The translations under genes were made by a program, and so were the position numbers. From Solirubrobacterales bacterium (GTDB taxonomy: Bacteria; Actinomycetota; Thermoleophilia; Solirubrobacterales; Solirubrobacteraceae), in contig DAHUYQ010000029.1 of assembly GCA_027315115.1 (NCBI GenBank), forward strand, positions 54,761 to 118,760: 64,000 bases of DNA, given 5' to 3'. Below, in pieces: positions 4,327-15,813 of this stretch. The notes under the pieces are model-generated. The model was not told where the DNA came from. It worked only from the letters and a program-made list of their open reading frames with translations, and made no database searches. Each line of letters opens with the position of its first letter. The stretch's first letter is position 1.

Positions 4327-6075
4327 TCAGTGCTTGAAGTGCCGCATCCCGGTGGCGACCATCGCCACGCCGGCGGCGTCGGCGGCCTCCACCGAGAGCT
4401 CGTCACGGATCGAGCCGCCGGGCTGGATGATCGCGCTGACGCCCGCGTCGATGCCAAGCTGCGGCGCGTCGGGGAACGGGAAGTAGGCATCTGAGGCGAG
4501 AACGGAGGCTGCCAGCTTCTCAGGCTGGTGCTCTTTGGCCTTCTCGACCGCGATCCTCACCGCGTCCACGCGGCTCATCTGGCCGGCGCCAATGCCGATG
4601 GTGGCGCCGTCCCTCGCGATCACGATCGCATTGGAGCGCACGCGCATGCATACCTGCCAGGCGAACAGCATGTCCTGCCACTCGCGCTCCTGCGGCTCCT
4701 GGGCGCCCATCACGCGGATCTGCTCCCTGGTCTCGGTGACGGCGTCGCCGTCCTGGACGAGCAGGCCGCCGAGCACGGGCCGGGAATCCAGCGCCTGTCG
4801 CTGAGCCGCCGCGGCGGCGACGGCCGCCTCCGGGGCGAGGTCCAGCAGCCGCACGTTCTTGCTCTGCATCAGAGCCTCGAGGGCGTCCTGGTCGAAGCCG
4901 GGGGCGATCAGCACCTCCACGAACTGTTTGGCGATCGCCTCCGCGCACGCCTTGTCGACTCTGCGGTTGAGCGCGATCACCCCGCCGAAGGCACTCATCG
5001 GGTCGCACGCGAAAGCGCGCTGATAGGCGATCAGGGCGTCCTGCCCGAGAGCGCAGCCGCAGGGGTTGTTGTGCTTGACGATCGCGCATGCCGGGCCGTC
5101 GAAGTCGAAGGCGAGCTGGCGGGCCGCGCTGAGATCGAGCAGGTTGTTGAAGGAGAGCTCCTTGCCGTGAAGCTGGGTGACGCCGGCGAGCAGGTGGGTG
5201 GTGGCGCCGACATGCGTGTAGTAGGCGCCGCGCTGGTGGGGGTTCTCGCCGTAGCGCAGCTCCATCGCCTGCTCGTAGACGGCGGTCACTCGCGCCGGCA
5301 GCGGCTGGGCGTCGGCAGCGACTCCCGCGTCGCCTGCCGTGCCCGCGGCCCGCGCCGGCGCCTCGCCCGCCGCGGCCACCTGCCAATCCACGGCCTCGCG
5401 CTGCGCGAGCCAGGCCGAGATCGCGGCGTCGTAGCGAGCGGTGAGCGAGAACGCCTTGGCCGCCAGCCGCCGGCGCGTGGCGAGCGAGAGGCGCCCGTCG
5501 CCTGCCCGCAACTCCTGCACCACCTGCCCGTAGTCGGCCGGGTCGACCAGCACCGCCGCGTAGTCGTGGTTCTTGGCCGCCGCCCGGATCATCGTCGGGC
5601 CGCCGATGTCGATGTTCTCGATCGCCTGCGCGTCGGTCGCGTCGCCGCGCGCGATCGTCTGCTCGAAGGGATAGAGGTTGACGCAGACCAGGTCGACCTG
5701 CTCGATCCCGTGCTCCGCGGCGGCCGCCAGGTGCGAGGGCTGATCGCGCCGCGCGAGCAGGCCCGCGTACAGGCGCGGGTGCAGGGTCTTCACGCGGCCG
5801 TCCATCATCTCCGGGAAGCCGGTGAAGTCCTCGATCGCGCGCACCGCGACGCCGGCGCCGGCCATCTCACGCGCGGTGCCGCCGGTGGAGACGATCTGCA
5901 CCCCGAGCTCGGCGAGCCCCTTGGCGAGCTCGACCACGCCGGTCTTGTCCGAGACCGAGATCAGCGCGGTCCGCACCCGCGACTCTGCGGCCGCGGCGGG
6001 CTCGATGCCGCCCGCGCCCGCGCCCGCGGACGGGCTCTGCGCTGCCGCGCCGGTTGTCTCAGGCTCGGATGCCAT
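4327..6075 (-). CDS. purH: Bifunctional AICAR formyltransferase/IMP cyclohydrolase
   Basis: ALISVSDKTGVVELAKGL, STGGTA, KTLHPRLYAGLLARR, ELRYGENPHQRGA, KHNNPCG. Confidence 0.97.
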   Translation of the reverse strand: MASEPETTGAAAQSPSAGAGAGGIEPAAAAESRVRTALISVSDKTGVVELAKGLAELGVQIVSTGGTAREMAGAGVAVRAIEDFTGFPEMMDGRVKTLHPRLYAGLLARRDQPSHLAAAAEHGIEQVDLVCVNLYPFEQTIARGDATDAQAIENIDIGGPTMIRAAAKNHDYAAVLVDPADYGQVVQELRAGDGRLSLATRRRLAAKAFSLTARYDAAISAWLAQREAVDWQVAAAGEAPARAAGTAGDAGVAADAQPLPARVTAVYEQAMELRYGENPHQRGAYYTHVGATTHLLAGVTQLHGKELSFNNLLDLSAARQLAFDFDGPACAIVKHNNPCGCALGQDALIAYQRAFACDPMSAFGGVIALNRRVDKACAEAIAKQFVEVLIAPGFDQDALEALMQSKNVRLLDLAPEAAVAAAAAQRQALDSRPVLGGLLVQDGDAVTETREQIRVMGAQEPQEREWQDMLFAWQVCMRVRSNAIVIARDGATIGIGAGQMSRVDAVRIAVEKAKEHQPEKLAASVLASDAYFPFPDAPQLGIDAGVSAIIQPGGSIRDELSVEAADAAGVAMVATGMRHFKH

Positions 6076-12374: not shown

Positions 12375-12599
12375 CTACACCGGCGCGATGATCTCGTAGT
12401 CCTCGACCAGCGGGTTGGCGAGCAGCATCTCGCACATCTCCGGCAGGCGCTGCGGGTCGGGCACGTCCAGCTCGACCAGGCGTCCCACGTGCACGCCCGA
12501 GACGCCCTCGAACCCGAGGGCGGGCAGCGCCTGCTCCACCGCGATGCCCTGCGGGTCGAGGATGCCCGCCTTGGGGCGGATCAGCACGCGCGCCCTCAC
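12375..12599 (-). CDS. purS: Phosphoribosylformylglycinamidine synthase subunit PurS
   Basis: VRARVLIRPKAGILDPQGIAVEQALPALGFEGVSGVHVGRLVELDV...LLANPLVEDYEIIAPV*; GTGA overlap with purC stop. Confidence 0.92.
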   Translation of the reverse strand: MRARVLIRPKAGILDPQGIAVEQALPALGFEGVSGVHVGRLVELDVPDPQRLPEMCEMLLANPLVEDYEIIAPV

Positions 12600-13498
12600 G
12601 CGGCTGAGCCCGTGCGGGAGAGCCATGCCTCGAAGGGCTCGCCGGCGATCCGCTCGTACGCCTCGACGTAGCGCGCGCGCGTGCCGTCCACCACGTCCTG
12701 CGGGATCTCCGGGGCGGGCGGCAGCTTGTCCCAGCCGGTTGAGCCGGCCCAGTCGCGCACGTACTGCTTGTCGAAGCTCGGCTGCCCGCGGCCGGGCTCG
12801 TAGCCGTCCGCCGGCCAGTAGCGGGAGGAGTCGGGAGTGAGCACCTCGTCGCCGAGCGTGAGCTGCCCGTCCTCGTCGAGGCCAAGCTCGAACTTCGTGT
12901 CGGCGAGGATCACGCCGCGCTCCAGGGCGTGCTTGGCGGCGAAGGAGTAGAGCTCGATCGAGACGTCCCTTACCCGGGCCATCAGATCCGCGTCGCCGAC
13001 GAGCTCCGCGGCGCGCTGGAAGTCGATCGCCTCGTCGTGGCCGACCTCGGCCTTGGTGCTGGGCGTGAAGATCGGCTGCGGCAGCCGATCGCTCTCGCGC
13101 AGGCCGGCCGGCAGCTCGATGCCGGAGACCGAGCCGGTCGCCTGGTAGTCCTTCCAGCCCGAGCCGGTGATGTAGCCGCGCACGACGCACTCGACCGGCA
13201 GCATCTTCAGGCGGGAGACGACCAGCCCCCGGCCCAGCGCCTCCTCCGGCACCCCCTCGGTGGCGGAGACGAAGTGGTTGGGGACGATGTGCCGCGTCAG
13301 CCCGAACCAGAACACCGAGAGTCCGGTGAGGACCTTCCCCTTGTCGGGGATCGGCGTCGGGTGGACGGCGTCGTAGGTGGAGATCCGGTCGCTGGCTACC
13401 ATCAGCAGCCGCGGCCGGTCGTTCTCGTCCGCGCCGAGGTCGTACATCTCGCGGACCTTGCCGCTGGCGATGAGGGGTAGCTCCGCTAGTGCGCTCAT
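12596..13498 (-). CDS. purC: SAICAR synthase
   Basis: LIASGKVREMYDLG, ATYDAVHPTPIPDKGKVLTGLSVFWF-like, VECVVRGYITGSGWKDYQ, LADTKFELGLDEDG. Confidence 0.95.
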   Translation of the reverse strand: MSALAELPLIASGKVREMYDLGADENDRPRLLMVASDRISTYDAVHPTPIPDKGKVLTGLSVFWFGLTRHIVPNHFVSATEGVPEEALGRGLVVSRLKMLPVECVVRGYITGSGWKDYQATGSVSGIELPAGLRESDRLPQPIFTPSTKAEVGHDEAIDFQRAAELVGDADLMARVRDVSIELYSFAAKHALERGVILADTKFELGLDEDGQLTLGDEVLTPDSSRYWPADGYEPGRGQPSFDKQYVRDWAGSTGWDKLPPAPEIPQDVVDGTRARYVEAYERIAGEPFEAWLSRTGSAA

Positions 13499-13591
13499 GC
13501 CCGGCACGATATCCAGTGCGCCGGAGGGCGGGCGCGCGGGCCTGGCACCTCGGCGCGCTCGTCTCGGAACCGGCATGCGGCCTCTCCATGC

Positions 13592-13611
13592 TGATATCAT
13601 TTTAGATATCA
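13592..13611 (+). promoter_or_regulatory. Inverted repeat TGATATC-ATTTTA-GATATCA overlapping the XRE start codon
   Basis: 7-bp perfect arms, 6-bp spacer; last base is the A of ATG at 13611. Confidence 0.55.
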
Positions 13612-13946
13612 TGGAGCCGGGAGAACTGGTACGCGGCACCCGCGAGCGCCTCGGTCTGAGTCAGCGAACGCTGGCACTGCGAGCCGGCACCACCCAGGCC
13701 GCCGTCAGCCGCATCGAGCGGGGCCTGGTCTCGCCGACGTTCGCGACGCTGCGGCAGCTCATGCTCGCGATGGGAGAGCAGCCCGAGCTCTCCGCTCGAC
13801 GCCTTCCCACCGAATGGGACCCGCTGCACCTCGCGAGCACGCTCGCGCGCAGCCCCGAGGAACGGCTGCGCCTTGCCTTTTCCTGGAACCGCATGAGCAG
13901 GCGCATCGCGATCGCCGGGCAGACGGCACGCTCCGACGATGACTGA
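13611..13946 (+). CDS. XRE-family helix-turn-helix protein
   Basis: LVRGTRERLGLSQRTLALRAGTTQAAVSRIERGLVSPTFATLRQLM. Confidence 0.85.
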   Translation: MEPGELVRGTRERLGLSQRTLALRAGTTQAAVSRIERGLVSPTFATLRQLMLAMGEQPELSARRLPTEWDPLHLASTLARSPEERLRLAFSWNRMSRRIAIAGQTARSDDD

Positions 13947-14430
13947 CCAGCCGCTCGACCCCGAGAGCATCTTCGCGGCTTTGGACGCTCACGGCGTGGA
14001 GTACGTGATCGTTGGCGGCATCGCTGTGCAGGCGCATGGCCACGTTCGCATGACCAACGACATCGACCTGATTCCCGCCCCCACGCCGGAGAATCTGCGG
14101 CGGCTGGCGGACGCGCTGGTCGAGATGCGGGCGCAGGTCCTCAATCCAGGCGCCGAGGGCACGGCGATCGATGCGAGCATGTTGCGGCGAGCCACGCTCT
14201 GGCAGCTCTCCACCGCTCACGGAGACGTCGACCTGCTGCACGACGCTCCCGGGGCCGCGCCCTTTGCCGAGCTGTGGGCACGCGCGCTCGTGATCTCGCT
14301 GGGCGACCGTCGAATACCGATCGCCGGGCGAGACGACCTGATCAGCATGAAGCGGGCGAGCGGCAGGGCGGTCGACCTGGCCGACATCGCAGCGCTCACC
14401 GAGCCTGAGCACCAGCGAAAGGACGTCTGA
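13939..14430 (+). CDS. Nucleotidyltransferase-fold protein (AbiEii/MNT-like)
   Basis: YVIVGGIAVQAHGHVRMTNDIDLIPAPTPENLRRL (GG...DxD), HGDVDLL; 8-bp overlap with the XRE gene. Confidence 0.75.
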   Translation: MTDQPLDPESIFAALDAHGVEYVIVGGIAVQAHGHVRMTNDIDLIPAPTPENLRRLADALVEMRAQVLNPGAEGTAIDASMLRRATLWQLSTAHGDVDLLHDAPGAAPFAELWARALVISLGDRRIPIAGRDDLISMKRASGRAVDLADIAALTEPEHQRKDV

Positions 14431-14517
14431 CCGGCGGCTCCGGGGGCCCGCCGGCTCCAGGGTCGCGCCGGCGCAAGCGGCGGCGCGCGGCCCTACGCCA
14501 CCCCTGCGGGCGCGGCC

Positions 14518-15813
14518 CTACGCGATCCCGTCCAGACGCGCGAGGATCTCCTCGGCGTAGCGGACGAAGTGGCCGTAGTCGAAGATCGCGTCGAGGTCCA
14601 GGCCGGCCGCGCGGGGGTCGCCTGCGAGCAGGTCCCGCAGCGGCACGCCCGTGTCGAAGGCGCGTTGCGCGAGCTCCTGGGCGATCCGGTAGGCGTCGTC
14701 GCGGCTCAGCCCCTGCTCGACAAGCGCCAGCAGCACGCGCTGGGAGAAGAGCGCGCCGTGGGTGATCTCGAGATTGGCGCGCATGCGCTCCGCGTCGATG
14801 ACCAGGTCGCGCACCAGCGCGATCATGCGGTGCTGGAGATAGTCGATCAGGATCGTGGAGTCGGGCAGGATCACCCGCTCCACCGAGGAGTGGGAGATGT
14901 CGCGCTCGTGCCAGAGGGCGACGTTCTCCAGCGCCGCCTGCGCGTTGCCGCGCAGCACGCGCGCGAGGCCCGTGATCTGCTCGCTCTTGATCGGGTTGCG
15001 CTTGTGGGGCATGGCGCTTGAGCCCTTCTGACCGGCGCGGAACGGCTCCTGCACCTCGCGCACCTCCGTGCGCTGCAGATGCCTGATCTCGGTCGCCAGC
15101 CGCTCCAGGCCGGCGCCGGCGAGCGCGATCGCCGACAGCAGCGCCGCGTGGCGGTCGCGCGGCACGACCTGCGTGGAGGCGGGCTCGGCCCGCAGGCCCA
15201 GGCGGGAGAGCACGCGCTCCTCGAAGCCGGGCGCGGTCGCGGCGTAGGTGCCCACGGCGCCGGAGATCGCTCCGTAGGAGACCTGCGCGAAGGCCTCGCG
15301 CAGCCGCTCCGCGTTGCGATGCGCCTCGAAGGCGAAGCCCGCGAGCTTGATCCCGAAGGTGGTGGGCTCGGCATGCACGCCGTGGGTGCGCCCGACAGCA
15401 AGCGTGCGCATGTGTTCGCGAGCGCGCGCCGCGAGCACCCGCACGAGCTCTTCGGCGCCCGGCAGGATCGCCTCGCCGGCGGCCTTGAGCTGCAGCGCGA
15501 GCGCGGTGTCGAGCACGTCGGAGGAGGTCAGGCCGAAGTGGATCCAGCGCCCAGAGGGCCCCGCGGAGGCCGCGAGCACGTCCACGAAGGCGGCGACATC
15601 GTGGTCTGTGACGCGCTCGCGCTCGGCGACCGCCTCCACGGTGAAGCCGGCCCGGCCGATCGCCTCCAGGTCGGCCTCGCTCGGCCCCTCCTGACCCGCC
15701 AACAGCCACGGCAGCTCCTGGCAGGCGGCGACCTCGACCTGCCGCCAGGTCTCCATCCGCGCCTGGTCGGTCCAGATCTCTCCGAGCTGGCGACGTGTGT
15801 ATCGGTCGATCAC
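14518..15813 (-). CDS. purB: Adenylosuccinate lyase
   Basis: MIDRYTRRQLGEIWTDQARMETWRQVEVAA, VGRTHGVHAEPTTFG, GQKGSSAMPHKRNPIKSEQITGLARVLR. Confidence 0.96.
   Translation of the reverse strand: MIDRYTRRQLGEIWTDQARMETWRQVEVAACQELPWLLAGQEGPSEADLEAIGRAGFTVEAVAERERVTDHDVAAFVDVLAASAGPSGRWIHFGLTSSDVLDTALALQLKAAGEAILPGAEELVRVLAARAREHMRTLAVGRTHGVHAEPTTFGIKLAGFAFEAHRNAERLREAFAQVSYGAISGAVGTYAATAPGFEERVLSRLGLRAEPASTQVVPRDRHAALLSAIALAGAGLERLATEIRHLQRTEVREVQEPFRAGQKGSSAMPHKRNPIKSEQITGLARVLRGNAQAALENVALWHERDISHSSVERVILPDSTILIDYLQHRMIALVRDLVIDAERMRANLEITHGALFSQRVLLALVEQGLSRDDAYRIAQELAQRAFDTGVPLRDLLAGDPRAAGLDLDAIFDYGHFVRYAEEILARLDGIA

Follow-up and report, generated by a model that had tools for sequence, protein, structure and literature searches.

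A probable mobile, autoregulated XRE/MenT1-like toxin-antitoxin module between purB and purC in a Solirubrobacterales genome

RESULTS

A two-gene unit in the genome of a Solirubrobacterales bacterium, consisting of a gene for an XRE regulator and a gene for a nucleotidyltransferase (NTase), is probably a mobile, autoregulated toxin-antitoxin module whose toxin resembles MenT1 of Mycobacterium tuberculosis. The unit lies in a stretch of 64,000 nucleotides, here called the window, to which all positions refer unless a contig is named. The pair itself is real, conserved, and mobile, and its assignment to the toxin-antitoxin type is well supported by sequence comparison. The original prediction had spoken of a toxin-antitoxin or abortive module. 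Its toxin-antitoxin part is borne out by a conserved two-gene unit, a MenT1-like NTase that keeps the catalytic residues, a putative operator on the promoter, and a patchy, mobile distribution; the abortive part is weighed below.

Gene layout and insertion site

The XRE gene (13611 to 13946, plus strand) encodes a putative antitoxin and autorepressor of 111 amino acids, and the NTase gene (13939 to 14430, plus strand) a putative toxin of 163 amino acids. The two open reading frames share 8 bp, with the NTase start inside the end of the XRE gene; these sizes and the overlap had been predicted correctly to the base. We rejected a longer XRE frame that would start with an ATG at 13575, since conservation among relatives sets in only at 13611 and the promoter lies between the two start codons. 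The regulator had been described as a plain XRE protein, which agrees with its HTH_3 match of 43.8 bits, and the same domain was found in all 43 aligned XRE relatives. Among solved proteins, the antitoxins HigA and HipB come closest, matched via the helix-turn-helix (HTH) domain only. A fold predicted from the single XRE sequence was poor (pLDDT 51) and was left unused.

The pair is flanked by purC (12596 to 13498) and purB (14518 to 15813), both on the minus strand and antisense to it. The interval between these genes (13499 to 14517) measures 1019 bp here versus 15 to 78 bp in the 18 genomes of the same genus in which both could be placed. Judged by this gap, the pair is an insertion of about 1 kb, and the purine setting is therefore accidental: the predicted position beside purC and purB is right, but the purine cluster is merely the place of insertion. 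No clean target-site duplication was found around the insertion. An exact 14-bp direct repeat (GCGCGGCCCTACGC, 14485 to 14498 and 14510 to 14523) lies at the purB stop codon and is perhaps a trace of it.

Distribution and mobility

NTase relatives are present in 121 of 232 genomes of the order and in 116 of 399 genomes from a sample of the class. We examined 77 NTase copies in the order; in 64, the gene immediately upstream and in the same orientation is an XRE gene, always of one family and in a few cases a fragment. Some copies stand without XRE, and two of them, L012 and L013 on contigs C29 and C46, are NTase relatives in the window's own genome without a recognizable partner. The same genome carries a second XRE-NTase pair (L011/L063, contig C44, about 4769 to 5233) with a different operator, GACACC-GTAT-GCGGTGT, and here the XRE ATG lies inside the palindrome. 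A search of genome contigs with the single protein gave one match, which was weak and unrelated. Pairwise distances between XRE proteins and between NTases are correlated with r = 0.71 (at most 0.14 in 2000 permutations), a mirror-tree value that includes shared ancestry. Both genes are under purifying selection, with a dN/dS of about 0.1 to 0.5 in the nine closest pairs.

The flanking genes of the other compared copies have nothing in common with the window locus. Related pairs, annotated as "helix-turn-helix transcriptional regulator" and "hypothetical protein," are plasmid-borne in Miltoncostaea oceani and Mycolicibacterium rufum. Furthermore, one genome (G150; locus L061, contig C162) holds a decayed copy with the NTase split into two frames and a truncated XRE gene. 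Together with the unique insertion, these observations form the pattern of a mobile module. A search of phage records for the NTase gave no match, and phages were set aside as carriers because the matches in IMG/VR are distant (27 to 34% identity) and the inspected IMG/VR flanks have no XRE gene directly upstream of the NTase match.

Relationship of the NTase to MenT1

The GG, DID, and DVD motifs predicted for the NTase were found at residues 26 to 27, 41 to 43, and 96 to 98. The profile search that had been suggested against the AbiEii, MNT, and DUF6036 families gave a divided result. With Pfam DUF6036 (PF19502), the protein scores 26.3 bits, above the gathering cutoff of 23.6, over residues 19 to 64 only, and all 50 NTase relatives match this family as well. 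AbiEii (PF08843, DUF1814) stays below its cutoff (15.8 versus 22.5 bits) and matches 22 of the 50 relatives at an E value of ≤0.01. The PADLOC AbiEii score is 19 bits, covering residues 19 to 65 only; among the relatives, 35 of 50 are matched by PADLOC AbiEii models, weakly and with low, partial scores. Aminoglyc_resit reaches 19 bits, slightly below its cutoff of 21, Pfam NTP_transf_2 has no match in the window NTase, and no NCBIfam family was found for it. DUF6036 itself carries no assigned function, and our literature search found no paper naming the family.

A family profile of the 50 relatives was compared with all solved structures. MenT1 (PDB 8an4, 8an5, and 8rr5; E = 1e-9) was its sole full-length sequence match, spanning positions 10 to 155 of 159. 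The next matches, TM1012 and another NTase (E = 0.04 to 0.14), cover the first motif only, and LnuA and ANT(2'') gave no sequence match at an E value of ≤1. The window NTase alone matches MenT1 weakly (E = 0.0084); it is the family profile, not the single protein, that gives the strong sequence match. For the predicted NTase fold (pLDDT 88), the five best matches are all MenT1 structures (E = 4e-8 to 9e-7), followed by LnuA (2e-5), TM1012, and ANT(2''), with E values of 2e-5 to 7e-4 for LnuA and ANT(2'').

In the alignment, T39, D41, D43, K137, R146, D149, and D152 of MenT1 correspond to T39, D41, D43, K138, R143, D146, and D149 of the window NTase. The first motif with G26, G27, T39, D41, and D43 (14014 to 14067, plus strand) is invariant among the 50 relatives. 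In the C-terminal motif (14350 to 14385, plus strand), K138 and D146 are likewise invariant, and R143 and D149 are kept in at least 90%. MenT1 is a toxin that extends tRNAs. Its D41A, K137A, and D152A variants have lost tRNA modification, and its T39 is phosphorylated in the presence of the antitoxin (PMC11375011, PMC10435456).

Putative operator and promoter

The inverted repeat TGATATC-ATTTTA-GATATCA (13592 to 13611) has the A of the XRE ATG as its last base, as had been noted. It has a single match in the 3.3-Mb genome at up to 2 mismatches; the number of matches expected in the window, with up to 3 mismatches allowed, is 0.22. Its position is conserved in relatives. Among 56 relatives with a complete XRE gene, inverted repeats around the XRE start score at least 6 in 30 (7.2 expected from dinucleotide shuffles) and at least 7 in 17 (1.9 expected). 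Also, the operator letters vary by subgroup with the recognition helix of XRE: TTQAAVSRIERG, encoded at 13689 to 13724 (plus strand) in the window, goes with TGATATM/GATATCA, TSQDAISRIERG with ACACC-GTAT-GGTGT, and TTQAALSRLER with TATACC/GGTATA. This is as expected of an autoregulator on its own site, and the palindrome is a conserved putative XRE operator.

The predicted -10 box, TATCAT (13595 to 13600, plus strand), is present within this putative operator, and a TANNNT box ends 6 to 8 nt before the XRE start in 31 of 48 relatives. Because of this distance, the mRNA is predicted to be leaderless or nearly so; the proposal of an almost leaderless transcript with the operator on its promoter is thus supported by the relatives. 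A scan for sigma-70 promoters came out empty, which is explained by its requirement for a -35 box. In most genomes of the same genus, purC has a -10-like box about 6 to 8 nt before its start (13499 to 13520 in the window; L112 to L125) and is probably leaderless, so leaderless genes are not peculiar to the pair.

XRE genes with an ATC at the start position

ATG, GTG, and TTG are all missing from the expected start position of the XRE frame in three relatives from one genus (L016, L019, and L023) and one from the window's genus (L020). L016, L020, and L023 lack these codons throughout the part of the open frame that precedes the HTH domain; the only one in L019 lies upstream of the promoter. 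Each of the four has an ATC exactly 7 nt downstream of the -10 box and inside an operator half-site, and this is the sole start-like codon at the expected XRE start. A sister, L018, which occupies the same genomic locus as L020, has an ATG at this spacing, and the five form one clade with 98 to 100% support. Purifying selection acts on both genes within this clade. The plain reading of these sequences is that XRE translation would start at AUC on a leaderless mRNA; alternatively, there may be an internal start or other processing. A limited literature search found no paper on an AUC start codon on a leaderless mRNA. L174 has no ATG, GTG, or TTG at its XRE start, and a CTG 6 nt after TATATT is a possible leaderless start there.

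In the window, an ATC in the XRE frame (13608 to 13610, plus strand) precedes the ATG, 7 nt after the -10 box as in the clade. The predicted transcription start, placed by counting this spacing, falls on the same triplet, so the ATC may be either a 3-nt leader of the mRNA or its start.

DISCUSSION

We infer repression, toxicity, a tRNA target, and a mode of neutralization as follows. XRE would act as antitoxin and repressor, and the DUF6036 NTase as a MenT1-like toxin. A dimer of XRE, alone or with the toxin, would bind the 20-bp inverted repeat over the -10 box and transcription start and thereby silence the pair, whose shared mRNA would be leaderless or almost so, with toxin translation coupled via the 8-bp overlap. 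If XRE were lost or outnumbered, free NTase would most likely add nucleotides to tRNA 3' ends and thereby block translation. XRE would neutralize the NTase by direct binding and possibly also promote phosphorylation of T39, whose MenT1 counterpart is phosphorylated. Counted against this explanation are the NTase copies without XRE, the weak single-protein match to MenT1, an antitoxin side that differs from that of MenAT1, the share of common ancestry in the mirror-tree value, the lack of a sigma-70 promoter with a -35 box, and the likeness of the predicted fold to the antibiotic-modifying enzymes LnuA and ANT(2'').

The last point would suit a resistance-type or small-molecule NTase, like LnuA or ANT(2''), that is held under an XRE repressor and is no toxin. 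Both enzymes follow MenT1 among the fold matches, and the Aminoglyc_resit score comes close to its cutoff; however, the family profile misses both and matches MenT1, and the tight, near-constant association with XRE, the presence of several diverged copies in a genome, and the divergence of operators are more toxin-antitoxin-like, which makes this reading unlikely. A nontoxic role in tuning transcription, with XRE or another protein as the substrate of the NTase, strikes us as quite improbable. Co-inheritance and operator coevolution would fit such a regulatory pair, and MenT2 of a related family has no detectable toxic activity (PMC11375011), but a patchy, mobile distribution suits a selfish module better, and the genome has just one copy of the operator, which argues against a regulon beyond the pair.

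A role in regulating or serving purC and purB is extremely improbable. The pair sits between the two genes and the purC -10 region contains GATATC, but the same purC GATATC is found in L127, from the same genus and without an insertion at this site, and the full operator is missing at purC. Since the pair is a unique insertion, absent from purB-purC in the 18 same-genus genomes and with its relatives located elsewhere, purine regulation is largely refuted. Finally, the module might serve defense, with the same biochemistry triggered by phage infection as in abortive infection, and this would be compatible with a toxin-antitoxin system. The related AbiE is an anti-phage system (PMC7725324, PMC11375011), and the weak PADLOC AbiEii matches among the relatives and the patchy distribution also speak for defense. 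Against it stand the low, partial PADLOC scores and the neighborhood of the window copy, which has purine genes on both sides and no adjoining defense genes. We consider a defense role somewhat unlikely.

The mobile, autoregulated toxin-antitoxin module stays our preferred explanation. DUF6036 is a common NTase family with no assigned function, and the link to MenT1 and to a constant XRE partner would give it a testable one. If the explanation is true, XRE proteins join the antitoxin types that control MenT-like toxins, with a transcriptional autoregulation unlike MenAT1, and the conserved T39 makes it possible to ask if antitoxin-induced phosphorylation extends beyond MenA1 and MenA3. Tentatively, and short of calling it probable, we suggest a large, undescribed actinomycetotal family of XRE/DUF6036 toxin-antitoxin systems whose operator would be fused with the -10 box, the transcription start, and the start codon within about 20 bp. 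The operator GATATC could thus replace the start codon, and one well-supported clade would have an AUC-first leaderless antitoxin. This clade would offer a test of AUC as a possible first codon of leaderless mRNAs.

Comparison with known systems

MenAT1 (MenT1/MenA1) has the NTase fold in common with the window NTase, which shows a near full-length profile match and the same catalytic residues, including equivalents of D41/D43, K137, and D152. In both systems, the antitoxin gene lies upstream of the toxin gene. The antitoxin side differs, with MenA1 unrelated to XRE: this protein of 68 amino acids lacks a DNA-binding domain, and MenAT1 was not autoregulated at the transcriptional level (PMC11375011), whereas the window pair has a 111-amino-acid XRE partner and a putative operator on its promoter. 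As MenA3 and MenA4 are COG5340 antitoxins and the HTH_3 partner found here is of neither COG5340, COG4861, nor MenA1 type, the pair is not MenAT by its antitoxin; its NTase also differs by remaining below the Pfam AbiEii cutoff.

AbiE and MNT/HEPN had been named as known systems with NTase-fold toxins, and membership of the pair in either is not supported. AbiE (AbiEi/AbiEii) resembles it in having related NTase toxins and an autoregulated two-gene operon, but AbiEi belongs to COG5340 and joins a winged helix to a C-terminal antitoxin domain; the window has XRE in its place, and the AbiEii score is too low. MNT/HEPN systems are also two-gene modules with an NTase-fold protein, but the window NTase lacks an NTP_transf_2 match and has XRE, purC, and purB as neighbors instead of a HEPN gene. 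DUF6036 membership, with a score above the gathering cutoff, points to no function.

The pairing itself is found in Xress-MNTss of Streptococcus suis, an XRE antitoxin gene with an NTase-fold toxin, which is the one experimental precedent that we found for an XRE-NTase toxin-antitoxin pair. It acts as a toxin-antitoxin system, in which XRE and the complex bind their own palindrome-bearing promoter; MNTss was described as kanamycin-NTase-like and is toxic in Escherichia coli solely when sent to the periplasm (PMC8406773). The window pair likewise has XRE and NTase-fold genes in one operon and a palindrome in the shared promoter, and the two are likened by gene pairing, NTase fold, and promoter palindromes. 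Overall, functional likeness to MenT1 and Xre-MNT is better supported than membership in any family.
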